64,000 nucleotides of DNA. It comes from Plantactinospora endophytica (GTDB lineage Bacteria; Actinomycetota; Actinomycetes; Mycobacteriales; Micromonosporaceae). The notes under the pieces are model-generated. The model had not been told where the DNA came from, searched no databases, and saw only the letters and a program-made list of their open reading frames with translations. The position numbers and the translations under genes were made by a program. The stretch spans positions 62,001-126,000 of the forward strand of contig NZ_BONW01000030.1 in the NCBI RefSeq assembly GCF_016862915.1. The letters run 5' to 3'. This document shows, piece by piece, positions 9,080-64,000 of this stretch (positions are counted from its first letter, which is position 1; each line of letters opens with the position of its first letter).

Positions 9080-10273
9080 CTATTTCGCAGCCGAACGGCG
9101 GTTCTGGCGGGCCGACCGGTGCCGGATCAGCATCTTCAGGTCGGCGAGTACCACCCCGAGCAGCACGGCGTTCACGGTGCAGACGATCAACAGCGGGGAA
9201 AGGAAGATCATCGGTGGGCCGAGCAGCACCAGCACCCCGCACCCGACCAGCCGGGACCAGTCCACCCGACCCAGCACCCGGTACTCGAAAAGAGAGCGGG
9301 CGGCCAGGAACAGCGCGGGCCCGCTCACGATCGCGGCGACCTTGGGCGCGGTGGTCGCCCCGAACGGGTGGTCGATCACGAGATGGTCCCCGACCGCCGT
9401 CACCACCACCCCGGCCAACATGAGCAGATGGGCGTACGAGGCCGAGCGGCCGACCCGGACCGGATCGGCGGCGGACCGGATCGCGTCGCCCATCAGCGCA
9501 CCGCCCCGGTGGAAGTAGACCAACCACAGCAGTACCGCCCCGACGAACGACAGTACGAACGCCAGGGTCCGTTCGGCGGTGAACTCTCCACTGTCCAGCG
9601 CCGCCCCGGCGACCAGGATCAACTCGCCGAACGCGATGGCGAGGAACTGGAAGTAGCGCGTCGTCAAGTGCTCGCCGGCCACCGTCCACTCGGAGACCTG
9701 CCCCCGCCCCAGTCCCGGCGCCGGGTACTGCAACATGTCCGCCGAGTAGTCGATCGCCACCGCGACGATCCACAACGCGCCGCGCAGCGGATCCTCGGCG
9801 AACGTCCCGCCGATCCACGGCACGGCGGAGACGAGATACCAGAACAGGATCCGGGCGACCCGGCGCCGGGCCTCCCGACCCCGGACGATCAGCAGCAGAT
9901 AGAGCCCCCGGAGGATGTGCACCCCGACGTACGCGCTGGCGAAGACCAGGTCACGATCGCCGTACGCCTTCGGCAGGGCGGCGGTCAGCAGCAGGCTGCC
10001 GAGCATCGCGGCGACGATCAGGAGCTGGACCGACCCCCGGGACGGGTCGAACCGGGCGACCACCCATGCGGTGGCGGACCAGGCCCACCAGACCGCCAAC
10101 AGCAGGACGATCATCCGGAAGGCGCCGGCCCAGGTCAGGTCGCCGACCAGTTCGTCGGTGAGCTTGGTGAGCGCGAAGACGTACACCAGGTCGAAGAAGA
10201 GTTCGACGAAGGCCGGGCCGTACAGCCCGCCCTCGCGCGTCGACTGCTGCTCCCTCTCCCGCTCCCGCTCCAT
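9080..10273 (-). CDS. Low temperature requirement protein A (LtrA) family membrane protein
   Basis: The 397-aa product has about ten hydrophobic segments and the LtrA signature at its N-terminus: ELFFDLVYVFALTKL, then a W-rich TM pair (VWWAWSATAW). LtrA proteins are membrane proteins of unclear biochemical role, first linked to growth at low temperature in Listeria. The ATG at 10273 opens with a Glu-Arg run (MERERERE) and has GGGGGCGGG upstream. The frame stays open for another 260 codons upstream through a 27-bp repeat array, but no convincing start codon is found there. Confidence 0.85.
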   Translation of the reverse strand: MEREREREQQSTREGGLYGPAFVELFFDLVYVFALTKLTDELVGDLTWAGAFRMIVLLLAVWWAWSATAWVVARFDPSRGSVQLLIVAAMLGSLLLTAALPKAYGDRDLVFASAYVGVHILRGLYLLLIVRGREARRRVARILFWYLVSAVPWIGGTFAEDPLRGALWIVAVAIDYSADMLQYPAPGLGRGQVSEWTVAGEHLTTRYFQFLAIAFGELILVAGAALDSGEFTAERTLAFVLSFVGAVLLWLVYFHRGGALMGDAIRSAADPVRVGRSASYAHLLMLAGVVVTAVGDHLVIDHPFGATTAPKVAAIVSGPALFLAARSLFEYRVLGRVDWSRLVGCGVLVLLGPPMIFLSPLLIVCTVNAVLLGVVLADLKMLIRHRSARQNRRSAAK

Positions 10274-13161: not shown

Positions 13162-14226
13162 GTGAGCGAGATCTCCTCGACCCGGTCCACCGGCCCCGGT
13201 GCCAGCCCGGGCAGCCGCGCCGACAGCGCAGACCTGCGCGGTGCCCTGGACGGAGACGACGCGGCGTTCACCCGGCTGGTGGCACCGCTGCGTCCCGAAC
13301 TGCACGCGTACTGCTACCAACTGCTCGGTTCGCCACACGACGCCGACGACGCCGTCCAGGACGCCCTGCTCCGGGCCTGGCGCGGGCTGGCCGGCTTCGA
13401 GGGCCGGGGATCGCTGCGCTCCTGGCTCTACACCGTGGCCACCCGTACCTGTCTCGACATCGTCAAGGGTCGGGGCCGACGGGCCCTACCGGTCGACCTC
13501 GGCCCGGCCAGCGACCGGGTCGTACTCGACAACCGGCCGTCGACCGAGGTCGGCTGGCTGAGCCCGTACCCGGACGGGGACCTCGGGACCGGGCCGGCCA
13601 GCCCGCACGCCCGGTACGAGCGGCGGGAGGCCGTCGAACTCGCCTTCGTCGCCGCGCTCCAGCACCTGCCCGGAAACCAGCGGGCGGTACTCCTGCTCGT
13701 CGACGTCCTCGGCTTCGCCGCTGCCGAGATCGCCGATCTGCTCGGCACCTCCGTGGCATCGGTGAACTCGGCCCTGGCCCGGGCCCGCCGGCTCGTCGCC
13801 GAGAAAGCCCCCGCCGCCAGCCAGCAACGAACACTGCGCCTGCTCGGAGACGACCGGATCCGCAAGATCGCCGCCGGGTACGCCGACGCACTGGAACGCC
13901 ACGACACCGAGGCACTGATCGCGCTGCTGACCGAGGACGTCACCTGGTCGATGCCGCCACTGCCACACTGGTACTCCGGGCTTCCGTCGGTCGCCGAGTT
14001 CGCCCGGACGGTCCCGATGGGGCTCTGCCCGAGCTGGCGTACCCGGCTGGTCAGCGCGAACGGCCAGCCGGCAGTGGCCGGCTACGTCGGCGCGGACGCC
14101 ACCGCACCGCACGTCGCCTGGGCAATCACCGTTTTGACCCTGCGTGGCGACCGGATCGCCGGGCTCACGTCGTTCCTCGACGCCACCCACTTCCCGTCGT
14201 TCGGCCTGCCCAACATGCTGCCGTGA
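13162..14226 (+). CDS. ECF sigma factor with SnoaL-like C-terminal domain (SigG/SigJ type)
   Basis: The 354-aa protein combines sigma regions 2 and 4 (DADDAVQDALLRAWRGL; LPGNQRAVLLLVDVLGFAAAEIADLL) with a C-terminal SnoaL/NTF2-like domain (residues ~235-354, DALERHDTEALIALLTEDV). ECF groups with this tail are believed to be controlled by the tail rather than by an anti-sigma factor. It begins with GTG at 13162; a longer open frame upstream lacks a good start. The last codons enter a 46-bp repeat array. Confidence 0.9.
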   Translation: MSEISSTRSTGPGASPGSRADSADLRGALDGDDAAFTRLVAPLRPELHAYCYQLLGSPHDADDAVQDALLRAWRGLAGFEGRGSLRSWLYTVATRTCLDIVKGRGRRALPVDLGPASDRVVLDNRPSTEVGWLSPYPDGDLGTGPASPHARYERREAVELAFVAALQHLPGNQRAVLLLVDVLGFAAAEIADLLGTSVASVNSALARARRLVAEKAPAASQQRTLRLLGDDRIRKIAAGYADALERHDTEALIALLTEDVTWSMPPLPHWYSGLPSVAEFARTVPMGLCPSWRTRLVSANGQPAVAGYVGADATAPHVAWAITVLTLRGDRIAGLTSFLDATHFPSFGLPNMLP

Positions 14227-15724: not shown

Positions 15725-15730
15725 TCGTTG

Positions 15731-15804
15731 AGCCGCCTGACGGAATCGAACCGTCGACCTACGCATTACGAGTGCGTCGCTCTGACCGACTGAGCTAAGG
15801 CGGC
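15731..15804 (-). tRNA. tRNA-Thr (anticodon CGT)
   Basis: The cloverleaf is complete. The acceptor stem GCCGCCT pairs with AGGCGGC, with discriminator U. The D arm is TTAGCTCAGTCGGTCAGAGC, the anticodon loop is CTCGTAA within GCACTCGTAATGC, and the T loop is GGTTCGATTCC. CCA is not encoded. The anticodon CGU reads ACG (threonine). A 30-base piece of this gene is repeated in inverted orientation at 8934-8963. Confidence 0.97.
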
Positions 15805-47542: not shown

Positions 47543-48655
47543 TCATCGTGCCTCGGCCGGGACGCCGGCCGCTCCGGTGAGGTCGGTGATGATGCGCTGG
47601 CAGAGCGCGGCCAGCGGCCCCCGCCCGGCGGCCGCCGGAGCCTCGCCGCGTTCGAGGTTGCGGCAGAGTCCCGGCTCGGGACGCAAGGTGCCGACCAGTG
47701 GCAGGTCCAGTGCCCGGGCGACCTCGCGGGCCTTGAGCCGGCCCGGCGCCGGACCGCGCACGATGACCGAGAGGTTGGTGCAGTGCAGCCCGGCGACCGC
47801 GACCACCCGGGCGGCTGCGGCGGTGGCCCGCAGCTCGGCGGGAACCAGCACGAACGCCTGGTCGGCCGCCTGGAGTGCGATCACGGCCGCGTCGTCGAGT
47901 TGCCGGGGCAGGTCGACGACGACGATGTCCCGGCCACGGCGGCCGGCGTCCATGGTGGCCGCCATCGCCTCGGCCGGCAGCGCCAGCAGGTCGCCGCGAT
48001 CCCAGGAGAGCATCACCAGGTCGCCCCGGCTGGGCAGCGCCCGGACCAGCGCGGGTGCGTCGACCCGGCCGTCCGCCTCGGTCAGCGCCGGCCAGCGCAG
48101 ACCTTCCAGTTGTTCCCAGCCGAGCACCAGGTCGAGGCCGCCGCCGAGCGGGTCGGCGTCGACCAGCAGGGTACGCAGGCCGCACCGGGCGGCCGTGATC
48201 GCGAGCCCGCCGGCCAGTACGCTCGCGCCGGCCCCGCCGCGCCCACCGATGACCGCGACGATCCGGGCCGGGCCACCCACCGCACCCCGGCCGGTGAGCG
48301 CCTCGCCGAACCGGTCGACCAGCCAGGGTTCGGCCGCCGGCAGCACGGCGACGTGCTCGGCGCCGAGCAGCTCGGCCACCTCCCAGCCGCCGTCCCCCTC
48401 GCCGGAGCGGCCGACCAGGACCACCCGGGGTCGGCGGGGCAGCCTCGCCCGCAGGCATGCCTGGGCCTGGTCGGTGCCGATCATCACCAGTGGCGCGGCG
48501 GCCCATCGGGACCGGGCCGACGGCGGGTCGGCGGCCACCTCCACCTCGCCGCCACCCGCCGCCGCGAGCCGGAGCAGCTCGTCGAGTAGCTCGTTGTCCG
48601 AGGTCACGACCAGGGGCAGGCGCGGTCCGGGACGGACCTGGGTACGCGGTGGCAT
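47543..48655 (-). CDS. ssd: Septum-site-determining-like protein (Ssd/CpaE-MinD family)
   Basis: The 370-aa protein has an N-terminal receiver-like region (LVVTSDNELLDELLRLAAAG) and a ParA/MinD fold with GGRGGAGASVLAGGLA, LLVDADPLGGGLDLVLG and IVVVDLPRQLDDAA. The P-loop lacks the lysines of true MinD, as in actinobacterial Ssd. Such proteins are encoded at the head of tad operons (Rv3660c in mycobacteria) and place the pilus machine or affect septation. GGAGGACGTG precedes the ATG. Confidence 0.88.
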   Translation of the reverse strand: MPPRTQVRPGPRLPLVVTSDNELLDELLRLAAAGGGEVEVAADPPSARSRWAAAPLVMIGTDQAQACLRARLPRRPRVVLVGRSGEGDGGWEVAELLGAEHVAVLPAAEPWLVDRFGEALTGRGAVGGPARIVAVIGGRGGAGASVLAGGLAITAARCGLRTLLVDADPLGGGLDLVLGWEQLEGLRWPALTEADGRVDAPALVRALPSRGDLVMLSWDRGDLLALPAEAMAATMDAGRRGRDIVVVDLPRQLDDAAVIALQAADQAFVLVPAELRATAAAARVVAVAGLHCTNLSVIVRGPAPGRLKAREVARALDLPLVGTLRPEPGLCRNLERGEAPAAAGRGPLAALCQRIITDLTGAAGVPAEAR

Positions 48656-52986: not shown

Positions 52987-53061
52987 GGGTACGTCCCGAG
53001 CCAGCACCCAACCCGGGCAGGGCGACTGGTGGCGATCCGGCCGGAGCAGCATGAGTGGGTC

Positions 53062-53450
53062 GTGACCAGCGTGAATGCGCTTAACTCCCAAAAGCGACGA
53101 CCCCCGTCGGGGGAGAGTGATCGGCCGTAGCGCCGAGTGCGATCGAGTGCCGTACCGCGTGGTCAGGAGTGGTGGTCGTGCTGCGGAGCATGATCGTCGT
53201 CGGCCGCGCGGTACGGCGTTCGCTGACTTTCTGCTGACCCCGCGGAGCCACCCGAGGTAGCTTCGATGGCAAGCCGCGCAGCGGCGCCGCAGCTGATCGC
53301 CTCATCCCGACGGCGGCCAACAGCCCACGCGATCGTCACGGCATCCAGAGGGGATGGCGCTGCGGACACCCGAGGACGGCCGGAGGCCGCCCGCAGGGTG
53401 GTCCGCGAGTGCAACAGCGTCGTTGATCATCGAACCGTCAGCTTGGGAAT
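53062..53450 (+). repeat. Left copy of a ~390-bp direct repeat bounding the island
   Basis: This segment matches 62386-62774 in the same orientation. The first ~177 bases differ by only about five bases. The rest is patchier but ends with conserved blocks at the same distance (+300 and +377). It contains a CCCCC/GGGGG hairpin, an 11-bp inverted repeat (GCCGTACCGCG at 53149 and its complement at 53207) and a 45-base stem-loop at 53362-53406. No gene in either copy has a consistent frame. Confidence 0.9.
53362..53406 (+). ncRNA. Candidate structured RNA element inside the repeat
   Basis: GCGGAC pairs with GTCCGC and ACCC with GGGT around an inner GGCC-GGA-GGCC hairpin. In the right copy (62686-62730) two A-to-G changes on the 5' side turn A-U into G-U pairs, so pairing is kept at RNA level. 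This favours a conserved RNA structure; transcription is unproven. Confidence 0.4.
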
Positions 53451-53717
53451 CGCTTTGATCAACACGGTGTGTAGATGTGGGCTCCGAAGTGGCGACGGAC
53501 TGTACGCACATCGCCGGGCGGTAGCCCGTGGGGCACGCGCTGTTGACCGGCAGATCGGACACGGTGCGGGCACGAAACCGTTCGGGTCCTACCCTCCCGT
53601 GTCGTAACGGCCCGCACAGGGGAAAGGTTACGCACGGGTGGAGATTGAGCGGTTTGCCTTCACAAGCCGTACGTACGTTCGACATGATGATGACCGTGAC
53701 GCTGAAGGAGGAAGCCA

Positions 53718-54488
53718 GTGGCAGACCGTAGCGCCATCGAGTGGACTGAGGCCACGTGGAACCCGACGACAGGATGCAACAAGGTCTCCGCCGGGTGCGA
53801 CAACTGTTACGCCCTTACATTGGCGAAGCGACTCAAGGCCATGGGCTCCGCCAAGTATCAGACAGACGGAGACCCTCGGACCTCGGGGCCGGGCTTCGGC
53901 GTCGCGATTCATGAGGATGCTCTCACGATTCCGTTCCGCTGGCGTGACCCGAGAGTCGTATTTGTCAACTCGATGAGCGACCTATTCCATGCGCGAATCC
54001 CGGGCAGCTTTGTCAAGGAAGTATTTAAGGTCATGGCGGCTACGCCGATGCACACTTACCAAACCTTAACAAAGAGGGCTATGCGGCTTGCCAAGCTCGC
54101 TGCTAGTCTTGACTGGCCGCCTAATGTCTGGATTGGTGTCAGCATCGAGGACGCATCTCACTTGGATCGACTAGCACATCTCCGCAAGATCCCAGCGTCT
54201 GTGCGTTTCCTATCAGCCGAGCCACTACTTGGTTCTTTGCGCGACGCGGACTTTACCGCCCTTGATTGGGTCATTGCCGGTGGAGAATCTGGCGCTCACG
54301 CACGGCCCTTGGATCCGAACTGGGTTCGCGAGATCCGGGACGCCTGCGTCGATGCAAGTGTCCCGTTTTTCTTCAAGCAATGGGGCGGCAGAAGCGCCAA
54401 AGCTGGAGGTAGAACTTTGGACGGTAAAACATGGGATCAAATGCCATCAAAGGTGGCTAGCCCCGTACTTGCATCGATACCGTCCTAG
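53718..54488 (+). CDS. DUF5131 / phage Gp37-Gp68 family three-Cys-motif protein
   Basis: The 256-aa protein has the family's N-terminus IEWTEATWNPTTGCNKVSAG with three cysteines (C20, C27, C30; C-x6-C-x2-C), then FVNSMSDLFH and a C-terminal FFKQWGG. The three-Cys motif is thought to bind an iron-sulfur cluster, as in radical SAM enzymes. Members are found in phages and islands beside TcmP, as here. GTG start with AAGGAGGA upstream. Its stop overlapped the original tcmP stop before the IS inserted. Codon use is less GC-biased than the surrounding chromosome. Confidence 0.9.
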   Translation: MADRSAIEWTEATWNPTTGCNKVSAGCDNCYALTLAKRLKAMGSAKYQTDGDPRTSGPGFGVAIHEDALTIPFRWRDPRVVFVNSMSDLFHARIPGSFVKEVFKVMAATPMHTYQTLTKRAMRLAKLAASLDWPPNVWIGVSIEDASHLDRLAHLRKIPASVRFLSAEPLLGSLRDADFTALDWVIAGGESGAHARPLDPNWVREIRDACVDASVPFFFKQWGGRSAKAGGRTLDGKTWDQMPSKVASPVLASIPS

Positions 54489-54536
54489 GCGTATTCAGGC
54501 CACCACGGCCTGCCCCTTGGATCCCACGAGGCGCTA
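54485..54536 (-). pseudogene. Detached 3' end of tcmP (last 16 codons and stop)
   Basis: Read on the minus strand in the frame of tcmP after removing the IS and one TA copy, this piece encodes SASWDPRGRPWWPEYA and a TAG stop. That stop overlaps the DUF5131 stop codon (CCTAGG). It shows that tcmP once ended here. Confidence 0.85.
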
Positions 54537-55413
54537 AAGGATGTCTCGTAACTTGGTGAAGGCGTTGCCTGGCAAGGGTGTTGGTGTCACCCGGTCAGGA
54601 TGATGTTGTGGAGGTGGGCGATGCCGGAAGCGGTGTCGGTCAATGTGCGGGCGGCGCGGCGGTAGTCGCGCAGGATCTTGAAGCACTTCATGCGGGCCAG
54701 GGCGTGTTCGACCTGGGCTCGGACGGTGCGATGCTGCTTGTTCAGCGCGAGCTTCCAGTCGGGTAGAGGGCTGCCGTCGGCCGGTTTGCGGTACGGGATG
54801 ATCACCTCGGGGTTGCCGCGGTAGGCGCCGTCGGCCATCACCGGCCGTCCGGCCAGCTTCTGGTCGATGCCCGAGGTGCGGTAGACGATCGTGTCGTTGC
54901 GGTTGCCGGGCTGCGGATCGCCGAGGGCCACGACGAGGCGGGTGTGGGCGTCGATGGCGACCTGCAGGTTGCTGCTGTAGCGGTAGTTCTTGCTCTGGGC
55001 GGCCAGGCGGTGGTCCCGGGTCGGGATCAGGGTGCCGTCGACGATCGTGATCTGGTCGACCCGGCGCCGGCGTACCGGTGCCAGGGCGAGCAGGGGGCCG
55101 AGGGTGTCGATGACCCGGTGGGCGGCGGAGTGCGACACCCCGAACAGCGGGCCGATCTGCCGCATCGTCAGGTTCGTGCGCCAGTACGCGGCGACCAGCA
55201 ACACCCGGTCCGGCAGGTCGAGAGCCCACTGCCGGCCCGGCCGGCCGTCAGCGATCGCGTCACCGCCACGCTCGGCGACCAGCTTGACGAGTCGGCGGAA
55301 CTGGACGGGCTGCAACCCGGTGAACGGGAAGATCCACTCCGGGCGGGCTGCCGAGATCACCTGCACCCCGACATGATCCACCGTGGACCGTCATCCAGTT
55401 ACGAGACATCCCT
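54537..55413. mobile_element. IS5-family insertion sequence, 877 bp
   Basis: The terminal inverted repeats are AAGGATGTCTCGTAACT at the left and AGGGATGTCTCGTAACT (complement) at the right, one mismatch in 17. The element is flanked by a TA duplication (54535-54536 and 55414-55415), as in the IS427-type subgroup. It carries one intact transposase gene. It has inserted into the 3' end of tcmP. Confidence 0.9.
54587..55381 (-). CDS. IS5-family transposase (DDE)
   Basis: The 264-aa protein has an N-terminal HTH_Tnp_4-like part (LTMRQIGPLFGVSHSAAHRV) and a DDE_Tnp_4 catalytic domain: IVDGTLIPTRD (first D), VMADGAYRGNP (second D) and VEHALARMKCFKILRDYR (E). It is a single, uninterrupted frame, so the element may be active. 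GTG start 33 bases inside the right inverted repeat. Confidence 0.93.
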   Translation of the reverse strand: MDHVGVQVISAARPEWIFPFTGLQPVQFRRLVKLVAERGGDAIADGRPGRQWALDLPDRVLLVAAYWRTNLTMRQIGPLFGVSHSAAHRVIDTLGPLLALAPVRRRRVDQITIVDGTLIPTRDHRLAAQSKNYRYSSNLQVAIDAHTRLVVALGDPQPGNRNDTIVYRTSGIDQKLAGRPVMADGAYRGNPEVIIPYRKPADGSPLPDWKLALNKQHRTVRAQVEHALARMKCFKILRDYRRAARTLTDTASGIAHLHNIILTG

Positions 55414-56335
55414 TAGGCTCCCATTTTGTGATGTCCGACGGCTTCACGCTGACCTCGACGTCAAATAGGGTCTGGAGGCCTTGTTTCTCGCGGCGCTTGT
55501 CTGCCGCCTTCTCTCGGGCCTCGGCTAGCATCTCAGGTTCGCGCTCAGCAGCTTTGCGGTAGAGGTGGGTCATTATCTTCTGGCCCACCTCGTGATCGGT
55601 AGCGAAGACCATGTCATATATGGGCATACCATGGAGCATCCGCATCGGAATCCTTGCCGTGTTAGCGTAGCCGAGACCTTTCTCAAGCCGCCTTCTTAGA
55701 AGGTTGACCATCTCGTCCCGATACTCCTCGGCCGAGATCGCATCGGCGTCGCGTGCGGCCTGAATAGTCTGCCACGCTTTAGTGCCATAGAGGCGATCAA
55801 CTCGCTCGACGAATGCGTCGGCGTTGGTGCCTTTCACTCCCTTGGCGACCATTGCTGGAGAAGCCAATATCCACAGCTCTGATTTTCGGATTCCGTCTCG
55901 AAACCTCGCGGCCTTTTCAAGCGTCCGCCAAGCAACCTCGGCGGCTTGCTGATCAACAAAGACGAATGTCGGGTACCGCCGGTACGGCGACAGATCACGC
56001 AAGACTTGATCGATGGTGGCGTTGCAGTCTCCGGGGTAGATCGTGAAGTCGTTGATGCGGTCTGGGTACCTGGCAGGTAAGTCCTGTTGAAGCTTGGCCG
56101 CCTTCGTGGCCATCTCACAGAAGGCGAGTTTCGTGAAGCCCGGCTTCGCGGCCAGGGCCAGTCGAGCTGATCCGTCGAACTCGACTCCGGTTGCCCTGTC
56201 GCGGTTGAACGGTTGTCCAGCCATGAGATCGACGTACACACGGTGGCGGGCTTTGGCGGAAGCTTGATTGAAGGCGGGTAGGTAGCCAGCCAGGATCTCA
56301 AGTTTGTTCCGCGTCCAGTACTGCCACTCACGCAT
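55391..56335 (-). CDS. tcmP: Three-Cys-motif partner protein TcmP, 3' end replaced by IS
   Basis: The 314-aa protein matches TcmP, the partner of DUF5131-type proteins: N-terminus WTRNKLEILAGYLPAFNQA, then a SAM-methyltransferase-like YVDLMAGQPFNRD, IYPGDCNATID, FVFVDQQ and the C-terminal YDMVFATDHEVGQKIMTHLY. The original last 16 residues are replaced by KGCLVTG read from the IS. The core is intact, so activity may survive. GGAGG before ATG 56335 fixes the start. A short overlapping frame (MSVEELAALLRG at 56385) lies just upstream. It faces the DUF5131 gene tail to tail. Confidence 0.88.
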   Translation of the reverse strand: MREWQYWTRNKLEILAGYLPAFNQASAKARHRVYVDLMAGQPFNRDRATGVEFDGSARLALAAKPGFTKLAFCEMATKAAKLQQDLPARYPDRINDFTIYPGDCNATIDQVLRDLSPYRRYPTFVFVDQQAAEVAWRTLEKAARFRDGIRKSELWILASPAMVAKGVKGTNADAFVERVDRLYGTKAWQTIQAARDADAISAEEYRDEMVNLLRRRLEKGLGYANTARIPMRMLHGMPIYDMVFATDHEVGQKIMTHLYRKAAEREPEMLAEAREKAADKRREKQGLQTLFDVEVSVKPSDITKWEPKGCLVTG

Positions 56336-56982
56336 ACAGGCCTCCCCGGTCCGCGTAGCAAGGCTGCAAGTTCCTCGACACTCATCGTGACGGCCCGTGA
56401 GTCCGAAAGCGAGGGTCTGTCGTAAAGCTTCTGAGGACGAGAGATTTTCGTGTTGGTACAGGTGCGGAGACCACGCGCCGCTTCGTCGACTCGGCATCAA
56501 GCCAGCCTTGGCATCCCGGGGGATGGGACAGCGGTACGCGACCACCCTCGGGGGCAGGCCAGGGCCTGTCCGGCGATAGGCTGCCCCAAGGGGTCGCAGA
56601 GGCTCCGCAGTCAAGGAAGGCCGCTTGCGGCCGTCGCTTGCGTCCTTGAGCGTGGAGGGGGCGGCCCCACACATTGCGCGCCGCCGCACCCCGGCCCTCT
56701 ACTTCTCGGCTCTCCGTCGCTGACGTGGTGCGGACGCGGGCCAAGCCGCAGGCTTGCCTCCCCGGCCATCTGTCCCGGCCTGGGAGGTGGGCGACTTGTC
56801 CACCCATCCTGCGGCTGGCCAACGCGTCACGGTGCGCGCCGCTCAGCGGCGCGCCTTGATCCAGATGAGGACGTTTCGGCAGTGTTCCTTTTACGCAACC
56901 CACCGATTGTCGACAGATGGGTGAACGTCGGCCTCGCGAGCCCTCGGAGATCGGTCATCGGGTCCCGGTCCAATCGGCCCAT
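56336..56982. other. Long non-coding gap between tcmP and HEPN gene
   Basis: About 650 bases lie between the divergent tcmP and HEPN genes without a convincing gene. Frames on both strands are short, Arg/Pro-rich and lack ribosome sites. The middle is rich in stable hairpins (see 56551-56854); the ends carry promoters for the two genes. Confidence 0.55.
56551..56854. ncRNA. Hairpin cluster, candidate structured RNA or replication/transfer site
   Basis: Three strong hairpins lie within 304 bases: GGGGCAG/CTGCCCC at 56551-56587; TCAAGGA/TCCTTGA at 56611-56649 enclosing GGCCGC-TT-GCGGCC; and a perfect 9-bp stem GCGCGCCGC-TCA-GCGGCGCGC at 56834-56854. GC content is far above that of the neighbouring HEPN gene. 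Whether it is transcribed is unknown. Confidence 0.35.
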
Positions 56983-57010
56983 TTGAGAGTCGTGAATCCA
57001 CCTGTATTAT
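56983..57010 (+). promoter_or_regulatory. Promoter of the HEPN gene
   Basis: TTGAGA (56983-56988) and TATTAT (57005-57010) are spaced 16 bases apart, a near-consensus housekeeping promoter. The expected start of transcription coincides with ATG 57019, so the mRNA is probably leaderless. Confidence 0.75.
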
Positions 57011-57018
57011 TCACTTCC

Positions 57019-58392
57019 ATGTCATCGAGGAACATAGGGGCGCCGGCTGTAGATCGTTTTCGTGGCGCCCTTATCCGATTAACCGACGCCTTGGAAGCAG
57101 TAGAGGAGCTGACTGAATTTACCGGCACTCACGTCTTGGCCTTAGACGACACAGAGAGGGTCATTGACTCCATCATCGAGCGCCGGGGTGTTCCGCTTAG
57201 TGAAGATAAGCGTGCTGCCGCATTAGACGCGGCCGCAACGTTCTTCGAGAGGCTGGAAACGAGCTTAGAGGGCGTAAGCCGGGTACATTTTGAAGTAGGG
57301 ACAGGCTTCAGACCCCCCGATGGAGGCGCTCAACATGAAGACCAAAACTTTGGCGAGAAGTTTCAAAATGAATTTCAACCCGCCATGGATCAGATGATAG
57401 ATGCACTAGAGGCCAACGGCATTAGAGGTCGACTGGCAATGGACATAGTGACTGCGTACTCTGCAACGAGAGTAAGGAAGCCTCGTGCAGCGATCCTATA
57501 TTCATCTCTTCTTGTCACTACCGTCGGTGCTTGCGAAGTGTTCTTGGGGGACACAATGCGCGCCTTCCTCAAGGCCCGCCCGGAAGCCATGAGCACGAGC
57601 GAAGCGAAGTTCTCATTCTCCGAGGTAGCGGGCTTCAAGTCGATTGAGGCGTTCCGCAACTATAGTATTAATAAACAAGTCGACTCAATCCTCCGACAAG
57701 GTAGTTTCGACGATTGGATGAAGTGGTTCGACGATAAGCTGCGTATCAAATACGAGGACATGACCAGTCATGGCCTCAACCTTCGCGAGGTCTTCCAGCG
57801 ACGTCATATCCACGTACACAACGATGGAAGAGTGTCCGATCTCTATCTACTTAAGTTGCCTGACCTCGAAGCACCTCCCACAATCAACACACACCTTGAG
57901 ATAACTCCCGCCTACCTTACGGGTGCCATTGATCAACTCTGGGATTTCGCCGTCGTCCTTATAGTCGCGGTCGGAAGAAAGCTTTTCCGAAAGGATGCAG
58001 CGTCCAGAGAAGCGATCAATAACCTTGGGGTCAATACTATATTCGAGCACCTCAAAAGCGGCAAATACCACTGCGTTATCGAACTCTACGCAAGACTCCA
58101 CGAGGGATTCGATAGCGAGGTCGACCGACTCACCACGAGGGTCAATCATTGGGTCGCACGGTCAAGATTAGGAGATCCCAAGGTTACCGCCGAGGTCGAA
58201 GCTTGGGACACTACGACGCTAAGCAGAAGATATCAGCTGGCCAAGACGGCATTGCAAGGAGACTACAAAGAGGCCGCCGAGCTAGCCGGACAGCTAATCG
58301 TTGGCGGCGAGTTAACACGAAGGGATTATCGAGAGTGGCCTTTGTTGCTACATGTTCGCGAGGCTTATCCGGATCCACCTATGCCCGACTAG
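57019..58392 (+). CDS. HEPN-motif protein, possible ribonuclease effector
   Basis: The 457-aa protein is helical and shows a HEPN-type R-x4-H motif in FQRRHIHVHNDGRVS (R262 to H267, followed by N and G). This matches the RN-x-x-VHN-x-G form found in many HEPN RNases of toxin and defence systems. Upstream helices (ILYSSLLVTTVGACEVFLGD) are typical of the fold; the C-terminal ~130 residues are TPR-like. GC content and codon use (ATA, TTA, AGA codons) differ clearly from the chromosome, so it was acquired. It has no ribosome site but a strong promoter, hence a leaderless start. Its relation to tcmP and DUF5131 is inferred from location. Confidence 0.7.
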   Translation: MSSRNIGAPAVDRFRGALIRLTDALEAVEELTEFTGTHVLALDDTERVIDSIIERRGVPLSEDKRAAALDAAATFFERLETSLEGVSRVHFEVGTGFRPPDGGAQHEDQNFGEKFQNEFQPAMDQMIDALEANGIRGRLAMDIVTAYSATRVRKPRAAILYSSLLVTTVGACEVFLGDTMRAFLKARPEAMSTSEAKFSFSEVAGFKSIEAFRNYSINKQVDSILRQGSFDDWMKWFDDKLRIKYEDMTSHGLNLREVFQRRHIHVHNDGRVSDLYLLKLPDLEAPPTINTHLEITPAYLTGAIDQLWDFAVVLIVAVGRKLFRKDAASREAINNLGVNTIFEHLKSGKYHCVIELYARLHEGFDSEVDRLTTRVNHWVARSRLGDPKVTAEVEAWDTTTLSRRYQLAKTALQGDYKEAAELAGQLIVGGELTRRDYREWPLLLHVREAYPDPPMPD

Positions 58393-58868
58393 CCAACGGG
58401 CACGAACTCGCGAAAAGCCCCTGGCCCGCACCTATCCCGTCCTACCGCCAACCGCCGGAAGGGAATGGTCCTACGCCCAGTCCGCCATCGAGCGGAAATG
58501 GACGCACGCTGGCGGATCGGACGCTGGTCTGCGCCCTTTGTCGAGGTCAATCGCGCCCGAGATGACTCGCGCAACCACTGGCCGATGAGTCTTCGGCATC
58601 TGGAGCCTGAGGCGCCCGCCGGATCTTCGCCGAGTCCTTCACGCTCAGCACCTCCCGATGCTTTGAGGAGGAGGTCCAGATTCAGCCGGTACCACATGGC
58701 CGCTCCTGGCCGGCTGTAGTCGTCCGTGCCAAGCGACGGGCGTCGGCGTGCTTTCGACCTGGACGCTCGCGCAGAGGGGCCGGTGCCGCGCTCCCCTGGC
58801 GGCGGCGCGTGCGGCCCGCTTGTGGACCGCTTTGAAGACGTACACAGAGCTTCCGCGGAGCTGGTAGT
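58393..58868. other. Non-coding or decayed region
   Basis: 476 bases with only short frames of odd composition on both strands. I see no domain, start site or hairpin worth naming; it may be decayed mobile DNA. Confidence 0.4.
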
Positions 58869-59102
58869 TCATTGCTGGTAGGGCGATCCTTCCACAGCGG
58901 CGCAGATGGCTTGCTGAGGGCTTGGGCGGCTGGGACGCCATGTGGTGATGATGGGACGGATTGCATCGACCAACGCGGAGACGGCATCGTACATCTCGGA
59001 GTCGGGCAGCTTGTCCAGGGTGGCGACGGTGTCCAGGGTGAGTTGGTACCGGTAGCGGTTGGTGTCGTCATCTCGCCAGTGCGGAGAGTTGCGCCACTCC
59101 AC
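58869..59102 (-). CDS. Small protein of unknown function, 77 aa
   Basis: The frame reads EWRNSPHWRDDDTNRYRYQL then TLDTVATLDKLPDSEMYDAV and looks like a real soluble protein. It starts at GTG 59102 inside the end of the upstream 45-aa frame. The combination looks like one gene split by a frameshift near 59070-59100, or two overlapping genes. Confidence 0.55.
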   Translation of the reverse strand: MEWRNSPHWRDDDTNRYRYQLTLDTVATLDKLPDSEMYDAVSALVDAIRPIITTWRPSRPSPQQAICAAVEGSPYQQ

Positions 59103-59205
59103 GGGTGAGCACTTCGGCGGCGGCGGCGTGGATGGCGGCAGCGCGTTGCTGGGTCGTGGGTGTGGCGTCGTGGCCGTCGTCTGTGGGCGTGGCTGCGTCG
59201 CGCAT
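59068..59205 (-). CDS. Short helical peptide, 45 aa, possibly 5' part of the next gene
   Basis: ATG at 59205 opens MRDAATPTDDGHDATPTTQQ followed by RAAAIHAAAAEVLTRGVAQL. It overlaps the 77-aa frame by 35 bases in another frame. The helical end joins naturally to the second frame if one base is shifted. No other feature is seen. Confidence 0.4.
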   Translation of the reverse strand: MRDAATPTDDGHDATPTTQQRAAAIHAAAAEVLTRGVAQLSALAR

Positions 59206-59281
59206 GTCCGAATGCTACAGATGTGCGACGGATCGTGATCTGCGCCTGCCGGGCTCGGCCTGACGATCAGTGACGGATGGG

Positions 59282-59836
59282 CTACGCGTCGGCCAAGGCC
59301 GTGAGCCATTCGTGGGCAAGGATGGAGTAGAGCAGGGAGTCTCGCCAGGTGCCGTTGGTGTGGACATGGTCGCGTAGGTGGCCTTCGTACTGCATGCCGA
59401 GACGTTTGACGACGGCGATAGATCCGGCGTTCTCGGGGTCCATGGCGGCGCTGATGCGGTGCAGGTCGAGGACGGTGAAGCCGTAGGTGATGAGGGTGCG
59501 GGCGGCGTCGGTGGCGAAGCCGTGGCCCCAGTGGTCGGCGTGGATGGCGTACCCGAGTTTGGCGGCTTTGACTCCGCCCAGGCCGAGCCTGCCGAAGCCG
59601 ATCATCTGGTCTTGCTTGTCGGTGATGGCCAGGTAGTACTCGTTGCGGGGTTCGGACTGGGCGCGTTGGATGGCGCCTTCGATCATGACGGCGGCCTGGT
59701 CGTGGTCGCGGCTGTCGTAGGAGAGCCATCGGGTGACGCGGTCGTCGCCGACGATGGCCAGGGCGTCGGTGACGTCGTCGAGGCGGAAGTCGCGGAGGTC
59801 GACCAAGCTGCCGGTGATGGTGTCGATCGGGTACAC
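59282..59836 (-). CDS. RimJ/RimL-type GNAT acetyltransferase
   Basis: The 184-aa protein has the RimJ/L pattern: VDLRDFRLDDVTDALAIVGD, YAIHADHWGHGFATDAARTL (acetyl-CoA loop) and MDPENAGSIAVVKRLGMQYE near the end. The substrate may be a protein N-terminus, an antibiotic or a toxin-charged tRNA. GTG at 59836 has GAGG upstream and follows the XRE-type regulator stop by 14 bases, so they are co-transcribed. Confidence 0.85.
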   Translation of the reverse strand: MYPIDTITGSLVDLRDFRLDDVTDALAIVGDDRVTRWLSYDSRDHDQAAVMIEGAIQRAQSEPRNEYYLAITDKQDQMIGFGRLGLGGVKAAKLGYAIHADHWGHGFATDAARTLITYGFTVLDLHRISAAMDPENAGSIAVVKRLGMQYEGHLRDHVHTNGTWRDSLLYSILAHEWLTALADA

Positions 59837-59850
59837 GCTCTGATCCTCGC

Positions 59851-61161
59851 CTATCGCGGGAGGGCGTTGGCGGGGGTGTGGGTGAAGTGCTCGATCCCGT
59901 CGACCAGGTCCCGGGCGTCGGCGGTGAGTCCAGCGCGGCTGACGGCCTGGTGCACGCGGCGGACGGAGTGAACGATGCCGTTGATCCGCTGGTCGGCGGG
60001 CAGCTCTAGCACGGGCGCCAGGGCGTCGATGGCGGCGTCGAGGTCGCGGCCGGCGATCCGGGCGATGGCTAGGTCGGTGTGGGATCCGGCCTGGTCGCCG
60101 AAGGCCCATGCCGGGTCGTGGGGATCGGCGTAGGCGGTGACGGCGCGCGTGGCGTAGTCCTCGGCGGCGGTGGCCTGGTCGGGGAGCCAGGCCAGGGCGT
60201 CGGCGGCGTAGTAGAGGGTGCGGGGCTGGTTGAAGGTGCAGATGCCGCCCATCGCGTCGAGGTCGTCGGGGCGTACCCGGGTCCATGCCTGCTCGGCCTC
60301 GGTGATGGCGGCCTTAGCTTGTTCGGCGTTGCCGAGGGCGGCGTAGGCGCGGGCAGCGCTTGCGGGGAGCCAGACCGCGGTGGTGCCGCCGGCTTCGGTG
60401 GCGTGTTCGCGTCCGGCGTCGGCGTAGCGGACGGCTTCGGCGTACCGGCCGGCCCAGTAGGCGACGAGGGATTGCATGCCGCGCAGCCAGGCTTGCAGTC
60501 CGGGGTGTCCGGCCTGTTCGGCGCAGAGTACGGCGGTGCGGGTTTGCAGCATCGCGGCGTGCGGGTCGGCCAGGTCGTGCGACACCTTCGCCAGTAGACC
60601 GCTGGTGATGCCGGCCAGGAAGTGCAGATCCCTCGACTGGTTCGGCGGCTGGCGGCGCTCCAGCAGGGTGAACAGGGTGTCTTGGGTCTCGGCGAGGTCG
60701 CCGATGAGCTGGTTGACCGGCTGCTGCGGGTAGGCCAGGGCGAGCCGCTGTACGTCTTCGGCGAGTTGCTGGATCGCGGCGGGGGTGGTGGCTTCGGCGG
60801 CGAGCATGGCGTAGTTGCGAGCGCGTTGGGCGGCCATGGCGAGGATCGTCCTTTCGGGGCCAGTACCGGGCAGGGCGAGGGTGCCGCGCTGCTCCGGAAT
60901 CGCGGAGGGGTTCTCGGGAGCCCAGGGGCGTTGCAGCTCGTCGACCGGTCGGCCGAACATGGCTTGCAAGGCACGGCGGGTTGCCGGGGTTGCCCCGGAC
61001 AGGTCCCGTTCGCCGCGCGCCAGGCGGCCGAGGTGCCGGGCGCTGATCGCCGCGCGAGGGTCGAACCGGGAGAACTCCTCGGCCAGTTCCTCGTACGTGC
61101 GGTCACTCTGCTGGATCAGGTGCGCCAGCAGAGTGCGGGGTTCGCGCCGCTCGCGAGCCAT
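59851..61161 (-). CDS. XRE-like regulator with TPR-type helical domain
   Basis: The 436-aa protein has an N-terminal helix-turn-helix-like region (ISARHLGRLARGERDLSGAT, residues ~38-60) and a long helical repeat domain resembling TPR (AEAVRYADAGREHATEAGG; AALGNAEQAKAAITEAEQAW). Such regulators are frequent in actinomycete accessory regions and sense peptides or proteins. It heads the unit with the GNAT gene. Confidence 0.75.
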   Translation of the reverse strand: MARERREPRTLLAHLIQQSDRTYEELAEEFSRFDPRAAISARHLGRLARGERDLSGATPATRRALQAMFGRPVDELQRPWAPENPSAIPEQRGTLALPGTGPERTILAMAAQRARNYAMLAAEATTPAAIQQLAEDVQRLALAYPQQPVNQLIGDLAETQDTLFTLLERRQPPNQSRDLHFLAGITSGLLAKVSHDLADPHAAMLQTRTAVLCAEQAGHPGLQAWLRGMQSLVAYWAGRYAEAVRYADAGREHATEAGGTTAVWLPASAARAYAALGNAEQAKAAITEAEQAWTRVRPDDLDAMGGICTFNQPRTLYYAADALAWLPDQATAAEDYATRAVTAYADPHDPAWAFGDQAGSHTDLAIARIAGRDLDAAIDALAPVLELPADQRINGIVHSVRRVHQAVSRAGLTADARDLVDGIEHFTHTPANALPR

Positions 61162-61593
61162 CGTGCCGCCTTCCCTCGGTTGGGCTTGTCCCTACGCTGT
61201 CCCACCCAGGTCCTTGCATCAATACAGGTCCCTGGAAGGTCTGTCCGATGTCCTCCACAGATGCCACTACGGGCCTCGAACGGTCCCCGCCGACAAGTAC
61301 ACGATCAGTGCATGGCCGCTCCACACAACGCAACCACCGATTCGAGGCTAACCCGGACCGGTGAAGGTTGTGGAGTTCCGGTCCTTGCCATACACAGCAG
61401 CGGAACTGCATCGACTGCGGCGGTACCGGTGTGAGCGGCCCGCAGGTTCCTGGCGTGGACGGGGAGCTGGCCGGGTGAGACAGGCCCGGGGTGGGTGCTG
61501 GGCAGTGACCGTACGTACGGTCGACCCGACGACGACGGCCGGTCCGATGAACCCGCCCACCTCGGCGCCGCCGAAGCGAAGGGGACACCTTCC
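61162..61593. other. Divergent intergenic region with a perfect palindrome
   Basis: About 430 bases between the XRE-type regulator and the short plus-strand genes. It contains a perfect 16-base palindrome, GACCGTACGTACGGTC (61507-61522), a likely operator for the neighbouring regulator. No convincing gene was seen; a plus-strand frame from 61361 is doubtful. Confidence 0.55.
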
Positions 61594-61596
61594 GTG

Positions 61597-61854
61597 GTGC
61601 CGAAGACAGGAGACCTGGTACGCGTGACCGGACGAGCGTCTGTGCAGTTCGCCGGCACACGAGCGCTGATGCTGCGAGTCCTGGCGGTCGATCCGAAGCC
61701 GACGTACTACGGATGGGCATGGATCACCGGCTACGTCCTCGACCACCTAGGCGAAGCGGTCGAGCGGCGAGAGATCTTCGTACAGCCGGCCGGCCTGCAA
61801 CTGGTCCAAACGCCGAGACCGGCACGGCACCCGGTCGGAGGACGTCGTGTTTGA
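61597..61854 (+). CDS. Small protein of unknown function, 85 aa
   Basis: GTG at 61597 (or 61594) starts a compact protein with PKTGDLVRVTGRASVQFAGT and a YYGWAWITGYVLD strand region, suggesting a small beta-barrel such as an SH3- or OB-like fold. AAGGGG lies about ten bases upstream. First of three overlapping short genes. Confidence 0.6.
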   Translation: MPKTGDLVRVTGRASVQFAGTRALMLRVLAVDPKPTYYGWAWITGYVLDHLGEAVERREIFVQPAGLQLVQTPRPARHPVGGRRV

Positions 61855-62104
61855 CGTACGGGTGCGGCTCGGTGAGGTGATCCGGATCCCGGCCGCCAGC
61901 AGGTTCCGCCCCACCGACGGCCCCGTGGCGTTGTGGGTGACCGGCGTACGACTCGTAGCCAATCGCCCCGAGCAGCACGAGTGGGTCTGGCTCGAAGGCG
62001 TAAAAATCCTGCACGACGGCCGATCCGGCGATCAGGCACAGATCCTCGTCCCCGCCCGCCTCCTCGCCCCCACCACACCGAACCCACCCGAGAACCCGCC
62101 GTGA
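61847..62104 (+). CDS. Small protein of unknown function, 85 aa
   Basis: GTG at 61847 overlaps the previous stop by eight bases. The product (VRLGEVIRIPAASRFRPTDG, VALWVTGVRLVANRPEQHEW) is beta-rich and resembles the previous protein in its W/V pattern, so the two may be distant paralogues. Its end overlaps the next gene (GTGA). Confidence 0.6.
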   Translation: MFDVRVRLGEVIRIPAASRFRPTDGPVALWVTGVRLVANRPEQHEWVWLEGVKILHDGRSGDQAQILVPARLLAPTTPNPPENPP

Positions 62105-62389
62105 GAGGCCACCACCTCACCCCCGCCGAGGAGGCCGGACTACGACTCGCCCAACGACAGTTCGAGGAACACCCCACTCAGCCACGACGGCCGCTGCCCC
62201 CGCTGCGGCAACCTGGACTCCTGCGCGCCTCGAAGAGCAGCGTGGTGGACGTTGCGCATCACCCGCCGACTACCCCACCGCCGCCCCGACGCGCCCCGTC
62301 CCGACCTCATCGACAGGCCACCCACCGAGCCGCCACAGGACCGGACGAACCAACCAGAAGGCTGCACGAACCAAACAGAAGGGCTGTGA
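62101..62389 (+). pseudogene. Frameshifted small gene with a CxxC zinc-like motif
   Basis: The gene starts at GTG 62101, coupled to the previous one, and reads RGHHLTPAEEAGLRLAQRQF. About 80 bases in, a +1 frame takes over with the sensible sequence SHDGRCPRCGNLDSCAPRRA, ending at 62389. The original frame instead becomes Pro/Arg-rich. A one-base frameshift (mutation or sequencing error) is likely. The stop falls at the first bases of the right 390-bp repeat. Confidence 0.55.
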
Positions 62390-62774
62390 CCAGCGTGAAT
62401 GCGCTTAACTCCCAAAAGCGACGACCCCCGTCGGGGGGAGAGTGATCGGCCGTAGCGCCGAGTGTGATCGAGTGCCGTACCGCGTGGTCAGGGATGGTGG
62501 TCGTGCTGCTGAGCATGATCGTCGTCGGCCGCGCGGTACGGCGTTCGCTGACTTTCTGCTGACGCTCGGCGGCGCTCTGGTCGTACTCGGTAGCAAGCCG
62601 CGAAGCGGCGCGGTAGCGATCGCCCGGCGCTCGATGATGGGCGACAGTACTGGCGATCGTCACGACATCGGCTGATCGGTGCGCTGCGGGCGCCCGAGGA
62701 CGGCCGGAGGCCGCCCGCAGGGTAGTCCGCAGCGTAGAGGCTGCCGAACCTGCCAGCACCCTCAGCTTGGGAAC
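62386..62774 (+). repeat. Right copy of the ~390-bp direct repeat bounding the island
   Basis: Same orientation and spacing as 53062-53450. The 11-bp inverted repeat and the 45-base stem-loop (62686-62730) are both conserved; one G is inserted in the GGGGG run. Between them lies the 9.3-kb island. Confidence 0.9.
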
Positions 62775-63027
62775 TCGCTGGGCGCCGGTCCGGGTCAAAG
62801 TCAGCGGCTTGCGCTCCTGGTCATGGTGCCTGTGGTTGCCCACGGTTCTCCGTGGTTTCCCGACGCTACGGGCACGTAGGGGGCACAGGGTACGAGCGCG
62901 GTGGAGGTGGAGCTGTCTGGGCTCTGCTGATCCTTGGCTGATTGGGCCGGGTGGGTGCGTCTTCTGGTGTGGTTGCGGCGGTCGTTTGTGTGTTGGTTTG
63001 GTTGCGACTGTCGGTGATGATGTGTCG

Positions 63028-63425: not shown

Positions 63426-64000
63426 GTGGCGGTGCAAGCGCAGACAGCGTTGACCGCCGCTGGTCATGGAATGGCTATCGGTTCTGTCGGCGCGCTGTAC
63501 GTGGGCGGTGATGGTGACCGGCCGGCGGTATCGGTCGCGCCGCCGATGGGACGGCGTAGCCGGCATCTGCGGGGCCGGGATGACCTGGTTGATGAGTTGC
63601 TGGGGCTGGTCACCGATGGTGTGGGTGGGTCGCGGGTGCGGGTGTTGCACGGGCTCGGCGGGTGTGGGAAGACGTCGATCGCGTTGGAGGTGTGCGCGCG
63701 GTCGGGTGGCGGGCCGGTGTGGTGGGTGTCGGCGGTTGATGAGGTGTCGTTGCGGGCGGGGTTGACGGCGGTGGCTCGGCATGCGGGTGCGAGCGAGCAG
63801 GAGCTGCGGGCCGGGGATCTCGGAGATGTGTTGTGGGGGCGGTTGTCGGGGTTGGCGTCGGGGTGGTTGCTGGTTGTGGACAACGCTGATGAGCCGGAGG
63901 TGCTTGCGGGGTCGGGGCAGTTGGTGGATGGGAATGGGTGGTTGCGGCCGGCTGAGGTGGAGGGGTTGGTGGTGGTGACCAGCCGTAGCGCGCGGTGGCC
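63426..64000 (+). CDS. NB-ARC/STAND NTPase, N-terminal part (runs off window)
   Basis: The open frame continues to the window end. It shows LRGRDDLVDELLGLV, the P-loop HGLGGCGKTSIALEVC and Walker B WLLVVDNADEP, followed by VVVTSRSARW (sensor 1), the order of NB-ARC/STAND ATPases. In bacteria these are regulators or abortive-infection proteins with C-terminal repeats, which would lie outside. GTG 63426 or 63432 or ATG 63471 may be the start. Confidence 0.8.
   Translation, partial: MAVQAQTALTAAGHGMAIGSVGALYVGGDGDRPAVSVAPPMGRRSRHLRGRDDLVDELLGLVTDGVGGSRVRVLHGLGGCGKTSIALEVCARSGGGPVWWVSAVDEVSLRAGLTAVARHAGASEQELRAGDLGDVLWGRLSGLASGWLLVVDNADEPEVLAGSGQLVDGNGWLRPAEVEGLVVVTSRSARW

Follow-up and report, generated by a model that had tools for sequence, protein, structure and literature searches.

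A 6C RNA gene as the probable attachment site of tandem integrative elements in Plantactinospora endophytica

Introduction

In the genome of Plantactinospora endophytica (9.68 Mb in 90 contigs), a set of accessory genes is enclosed by a pair of direct repeats, each about 390 bp long. Are these repeats the boundaries of a mobile island, or do they belong to a separately spreading element that happens to lie on either side of it? Both possibilities had been left standing by a reading made from the sequence alone, which also proposed that recombination between the repeats would delete the enclosed genes. We addressed the question in a stretch of 64,000 nucleotides (C30:62001-126000, hereafter the window; C30 ends at 126868) and in the corresponding loci of related genomes. 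Coordinates without a contig name are those of the window.

Results

The paired repeats share a 25-nt core

Copy 1 of the repeat occupies 53062-53450 and copy 2 62386-62775, and their matching blocks keep a constant spacing of 9324-9325, just as the sequence-only reading had described: 53057-53113/62381-62437 (96%, with 53062-53113 identical), 53109-53238/62434-62563 (97%), 53308-53345/62632-62669 (74%) and 53357-53406/62681-62730 (94%). The first 52 nt are identical and the copies are about 85% alike beyond them. Based on how its parts are spread across other genomes, the repeat was divided into A (the att core region), B (a 106-nt imperfect palindrome), C (~80 nt) and D (~53 nt). The two copies of palindrome B are 97% alike, while C-D has drifted to about 85%. 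A 25-nt core shared by the left and right ends, AAAGSGACGACCCCCGTCGGGGGGA, is found twice in the 64-kb window with three or fewer mismatches, compared with a maximum of zero occurrences in 100 shuffles. The only further match to the repeat in the host genome (E <=0.001) is to part A, at C31:13770-13821.

Part A is the 3' end of a 6C RNA gene

The nature of part A became apparent at the empty site of a congener (G032), where ssd is followed by two more genes, then 6C and HAD, and a single core is present without any element. In this congener, A continues into a second hairpin, and Rfam identifies the whole as 6C RNA (RF01066). The host genome has one match to this family, an intact gene at C31:13800-13872 (72.7 bits, cut-off 47), about 30 bp from a gene for a 419-aa integrase; the 52-nt block recurs in it for a third time. 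The core spans the C-rich loop of 6C, the 3' arm of its second hairpin and the start of its U-rich end, and A and the HAD gene are on opposite strands. While the C31 gene represents the whole two-hairpin RNA above the Rfam cut-off, as in the 6C/B11 RNAs of mycobacteria, the window copies hold the 3' part only, and therefore a search of 48-64 kb of the window yielded no Rfam match at E <=1. A tRNA gene was considered as the attachment site and rejected, as the sole tRNA in the window (15730-15804) lies 37 kb away.

Each repeat thus opens with a displaced 6C 3' end, after which comes the end of an element, made up of palindrome B and modules C and D:

53062-53117, plus strand: att copy 1 (attL of island 1), displaced 6C 3' end; core at 53091-53115
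53126-53231, plus strand: module B1, 106-nt imperfect palindrome
53263-53341, plus strand: module C1
53357-53409, plus strand: module D1
62386-62441, plus strand: att copy 2, shared by island 1 (right end) and element 2 (left end); core at 62415-62439
62451-62556, plus strand: module B2
62587-62664, plus strand: module C2
62681-62731, plus strand: module D2

As guesses, B may be an attP arm, and C and D may have a role in transfer or as a single-strand origin.

6C lies in a conserved locus that is either empty or occupied

Of 140 family genomes, 113 gave a 6C match, which scored above the cut-off in 108. Flanks were taken for 60 of these loci in descending order of score (five were skipped, one of them on a very short contig). 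The HAD gene adjoins 6C in all 60, and an ssd homolog lies on the 6C 3' side in 58. In M. tuberculosis, 6C lies between Rv3660c and Rv3661. Eight of the 60 loci have either an integrase homolog no more than 700 bp away or a second core, and the remaining 52 carry no trace of the element family. Among the 50 traceless loci with ssd, the median distance between ssd and 6C is 598 bp (<=1000 bp in 32), and 18 hold more than 1 kb of other DNA in this interval. In the host, the usual 3'-side neighbor of 6C is separated from it: an ssd-like gene (AAA_31/CbiA ATPase by Pfam; 47543-48655, minus strand) forms the chromosomal flank 4.4 kb from repeat copy 1, with 6C and the HAD gene on contig C31.

Because the core is itself the 3' end of 6C, integration is expected to leave an intact gene. 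At eight occupied sites, 6C scores 69-78 bits, compared with 68.8 at the empty site of G032 and in G078; the scores in G113 and G238 are 72.7 and 73.9. Hosts that are more distant and have a linked integrase score lower (G103, 63.6; G090, 58.4; G098, 56.7; G086, 46.0), within the span seen for their congeners in that survey; for the occupied site of G086, just below the cut-off, congeners score 46.3-50.4.

A second element probably spans two contigs

To the left of 6C on C31 lie homologs of two short genes of the window, sg1 and sg2, an FtsK/SpoIIIE-type gene, a RepSA initiator gene and the tyrosine integrase gene; the HAD gene is downstream. The integrase (PF00589, E 9e-24) ends at C31:13770 and 6C starts at 13800. 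The initiator matches PF20199 (E 2e-93) and reaches 45.6 of 700 for the NCBIfam RepSA equivalog, far below its cut-off. The translocase exceeds the cut-off for PF01580 (E 4e-15) and scores 27.5 of 800 bits for NCBIfam TraB, so we call it FtsK-type rather than TraB. With one core at 62415 and another on C31, the host locus is split across two contigs, and since C30 ends at 126868 and C31 opens with other cargo genes, these contigs most likely flank a single gap inside one element. Element 2 would accordingly run from 62386 to the end of C30, through an unsequenced gap, and on through C31:1-13770. Its cargo includes, on the window side, the start of an ATPase gene that continues past the window (63426-64000, plus strand; AAA_16, E 2e-5, below the Pfam cut-off) and, on C31 (L055:573-3086), genes for a HEPN protein, an NsnA/GmrSD-like protein and a NUDIX protein. 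The NsnA/GmrSD-like gene is a candidate defense gene.

Island 1 carries cargo and backbone genes but no integrase

The enclosed set, island 1 (53062-62385), runs from its left end through DUF5131, an IS5-like element, TcmP, a low-GC gene, GNAT, an NsdA-family regulator, sg1 and sg2 to the next A. The gene caller was crude, so that gene starts are approximate.

53023-53061, plus strand: possible sg2 remnant abutting att copy 1, suggestive only
53718-54488, plus strand: DUF5131 protein, part B of candidate defense pair PDC-M41 (PF07505, E 5e-98)
54534-55416, minus strand: IS5-like element (transposase 54587-55381; inverted ends of 29 nt, 86%)
55391-56335, minus strand: TcmP, part A of PDC-M41 (TIGR04474, E 4e-53; PDC-M41A, E 7e-24; start approximate)
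57019-58392, plus strand: low-GC gene (51.9% GC; start approximate)
59282-59836, minus strand: GNAT acetyltransferase (PF13302), backbone gene of the element family, homologs in related elements
59851-61161, minus strand: NsdA-family TPR regulator, backbone gene (NF053720, E 6e-29; homologs 80-83%)
61594-61854, plus strand: short gene sg1, backbone, homologs in related elements
61847-62104, plus strand: short gene sg2, backbone, homologs in related elements
62262-62348, plus strand: weak candidate for what is left of an integrase gene (blastn 67%, E 0.021)

The foreign cargo is much as the sequence-only reading had named it, with DUF5131, TcmP, the IS and GNAT confirmed by family matches, and with two short coupled genes that match no family. 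Two of its labels changed: the regulator called XRE belongs by its NCBIfam match to the NsdA TPR family, and the supposed HEPN protein is indeed of low GC (51.9% at 57-58 kb vs 71-75% at 48-52 kb) but has no match in Pfam, PADLOC or NCBIfam. DUF5131 and TcmP both match their parts of PDC-M41, with the IS5-like element sitting between the two genes, and may form this candidate defense pair; for DUF5131, the PADLOC match to PDC-M41B (E 3e-105) is nearly equaled by PDC-M30B (7e-102). The IS5-like element lies at the 3' end of tcmP and may have altered the last residues of TcmP.

That no integrase is seen holds throughout the 64-kb window, where relatives of the C31 integrase, RepSA and FtsK were absent at E <=0.1; the integrase sits on C31. 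The possible integrase remnant in island 1 scores 64 in a local alignment, where 1000 shuffles reached at most 59; other parts of the window give blastn matches of similar E value, and a profile built from ten int tails found no match at 62262-62348. Left of copy 1, the 39-nt sg2-like piece agrees in 12 of 13 residues (E 0.001) and 31 of 39 nt without gaps, its score of 46 exceeding the maximum of 42 in 2000 shuffles and being reached by one of 1358 other window pieces. Should this fragment be genuine, copy 1 would be an old junction in its own right; as a trace of an older, third element, the fragment is suggestive only.

Related loci point to a decayed element followed by a second one

In relatives, the locus is either an empty ssd-6C-HAD arrangement or occupied by elements; in some of these, two cores enclose FtsK, RepSA and integrase, and some stand in tandem. 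The FtsK-Rep-Int order is found at near full length between two cores beside HAD in G222, G208, G186 and the first of two elements in G188, so that each of these four relatives has a continuous element with att repeats at either end. Left ends of this first type consist of A-B plus C and/or D. A second type, with a distant FtsK homolog (32-33%), occurs in G188, G182 and G236; in G188 (C1:3924000-3974000; L039, L127, L166), a tandem pair of differing FtsK type lies between ssd and 6C. Less complete sets are also present, with Rep in two pieces in G155, a partial Rep in G216 and partial FtsK and Int in G196. The integrase frames of G222, G216, G155, G208, G186 and G103 extend past the att core (463-544 residues vs 419), and the C-terminus would therefore differ between the circular and the integrated form.

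These sequence identities, together with synteny, gene content and the adjacency of integrase and 6C, make it very probable that the repeats are att sites of tyrosine-integrase elements that use the 6C 3' end as attB, and that two such elements lie here in tandem. From the layout of the relatives and the integrase-6C adjacency on C31, we read island 1 as most likely a decayed, integrase-less AICE, similar to a CIME, that precedes a second AICE.

Island 1 could instead be a lean, integrase-less satellite that retains the left end, regulators and cargo and depends on 6C-type AICEs, acting in trans or in cis, for its movement; we consider this unlikely. A second species (G003) has a similar layout in a truncated element of 3.3 kb, in which A-B-C and sg1-sg2 lead directly into A-6C-HAD and no Int, RepSA or FtsK homolog was found, and the sg2-like fragment adjoining the core left of att copy 1 also fits a satellite. 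These are, however, only two clear cases, and integrase fragments beside 6C in G113, G130, G137 and G053, and left of a core in G208, resemble ordinary decay. A broader version, by which island 1 and the G003 element belong to a satellite family that retains cis sites and regulators only and travels with 6C-type AICEs, its movement being tied to a conserved regulatory RNA through repeated use of 6C, with the 3' end supplied by the chromosome or by the element, appears somewhat less probable again.

Modules C and D also occur apart from 6C

The repeats might be copies of a dispersed noncoding element flanking foreign genes by chance, and some part of the repeat is indeed matched in 129 of 300 family genomes. 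The A core nevertheless lies within 100 bp of B in 33 of 36 B matches (among the loci examined, with overlapping loci counted apart), A is the 3' end of 6C, and the host genome holds no further copy at E <=0.001 beyond part A on C31. Occurrences at unrelated places without accessory cargo, which the sequence-only reading had named as refuting its proposal, are seen in part for C and D: away from 6C, these adjoin backbone genes of the element in eight of nine loci of one set, but in another set of ten, five (L040, L041, L042, L045, L047) showed no backbone gene in the 14-19 kb examined. We consider a chance-flanking element very unlikely, and favor boundaries over separate spread for A-B.

A vapBC-like pair separates D from C in L040; this label, like esterase, MMPL, TetR and glyoxalase, is a reading of translations for genes taken without a family search. 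At three C/D loci (G079, G020, G036), tRNA-Arg(cct) is located 1.8-2.7 kb beyond Rep, and no integrase was found there with the C31 integrase as query; G067 and G034 carry a distant integrase (31-34%) close to tRNA-Pro and tRNA-Gly. The presence of B, C and D on one strand with variable spacing had suggested a cassette or integron, a reading that was dropped once the element ends had been mapped.

That the second copy arose by simple duplication or misassembly is scarcely credible: the locus does lie at contig ends and the first 180 nt are 97-100% alike, but the copies differ by about 15% past module B in a gapped alignment, and tandem cores enclosing elements recur in other species (e.g. G188, G236, L186, L188).

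Integrase relatives are divided between 6C and tRNA genes

A scan of GTDB contigs with the C31 integrase gave 30 loci, in which 6C was called by a profile built here from 6C sequences. 6C lies within 142 bp of the match in 22 of them, all from Micromonospora or Phytohabitans (one cut by a contig end, and several with integrase fragments). Six lie beside a tRNA gene: tRNA-Asp in Jiangella (three), tRNA-Ala in Pseudonocardiales, tRNA-Val in Catellatospora and tRNA-Val in Bacillus (226 bp away). One (L171, Micromonospora) has the core only, and one has neither 6C nor tRNA. Within 140 family genomes, 19 integrase matches (E <=1e-60) in 17 genomes comprise six within 500 bp of 6C, ten beside tRNAs and three with neither; at 69% identity or more, 3/3 are at 6C, compared with 3/16 below. 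The 16 matches from 298 order-level genomes comprise nine at 6C (the host's included), one inside the G188 tandem, five at tRNAs and one with neither, and the three from outside the family are all beside tRNAs. These three sets overlap.

In a tree of 24 integrases, one branch parts 14 6C-linked rows, including the internal G188 copy, from eight tRNA-linked rows (support 93/92, just below the tool's strong-support mark of 95; 99% of 200 bootstrap trees). Two rows lack an assigned site, and the two distant tRNA-Pro/Gly rows are about 0.4 kb from their tRNA. The integrase group appears to have switched between tRNA and small-RNA targets, and we infer that the direction was from tRNA to 6C.

Discussion

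Tyrosine integrases recombine between like cores. An incoming element would bring its own copy of the 6C 3' end, so that integration would leave a whole 6C on the HAD side, with the old 3' end displaced away from it. In principle, all three cores are open to the integrase of element 2: recombination between copies 1 and 2 would delete island 1, between copies 2 and 3 would excise element 2, and between copies 1 and 3 would excise both, moving island 1 in cis. The earlier proposal that the repeats bound the foreign set is borne out, and deletion of that set by recombination between them is a predicted possibility; recombination, excision and transfer of these elements are predictions from sequence.

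The element family to which element 2 belongs resembles pSAM2-like AICEs in having an FtsK-type gene, an initiator of the RepSA family, a tyrosine integrase adjoining an att core, and direct repeats, and in the order att-tra-rep-int-att given in PMC3218068. It differs in its target, which is a 6C regulatory RNA gene and not the typical, though not defining, tRNA 3' end; in the portions available of PMC3218068, PMC3364876 and PMC9513070, tyrosine-integrase AICEs are found mostly in the 3' ends of tRNA genes, and others in protein genes or intergenic regions. Island 1 is like a CIME or DAICE (CIMEs are defined and reviewed in PMC5704250) in being cored on both sides, lacking an integration or transfer gene and being followed by a same-core element, and unlike a CIME in that its site is 6C and its cis-mobilization is a prediction. 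Judging by the layout of the family, its integration and transfer genes were probably lost rather than never present. DAICEs, decay, accretion and exchange of integration modules have been described for Streptomyces AICEs (PMC9513070), so these processes are already known. The use of 6C as a target appears to be new: the literature matches listed, with subscription papers mostly outside the search, include no 6C or other small RNA gene as an AICE site.

For the biology of these bacteria, a conserved regulatory RNA gene joins the targets of actinomycete conjugative elements. As described in PMC10470900, B11, the 6C homolog of M. abscessus, works via its C-rich loops. Displaced 3' ends explain partial 6C copies near islands, and the split between tRNA and small-RNA sites among close integrase relatives opens the basis of target choice to study. 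The integrase and its site might become an integration tool for Micromonospora-type hosts. Finally, since 6C lies between ssd and HAD in nearly all loci examined, the locus is a predictable hot spot for candidate defense genes, of which the PDC-M41-like pair and the NsnA/GmrSD-like gene are the candidates here.
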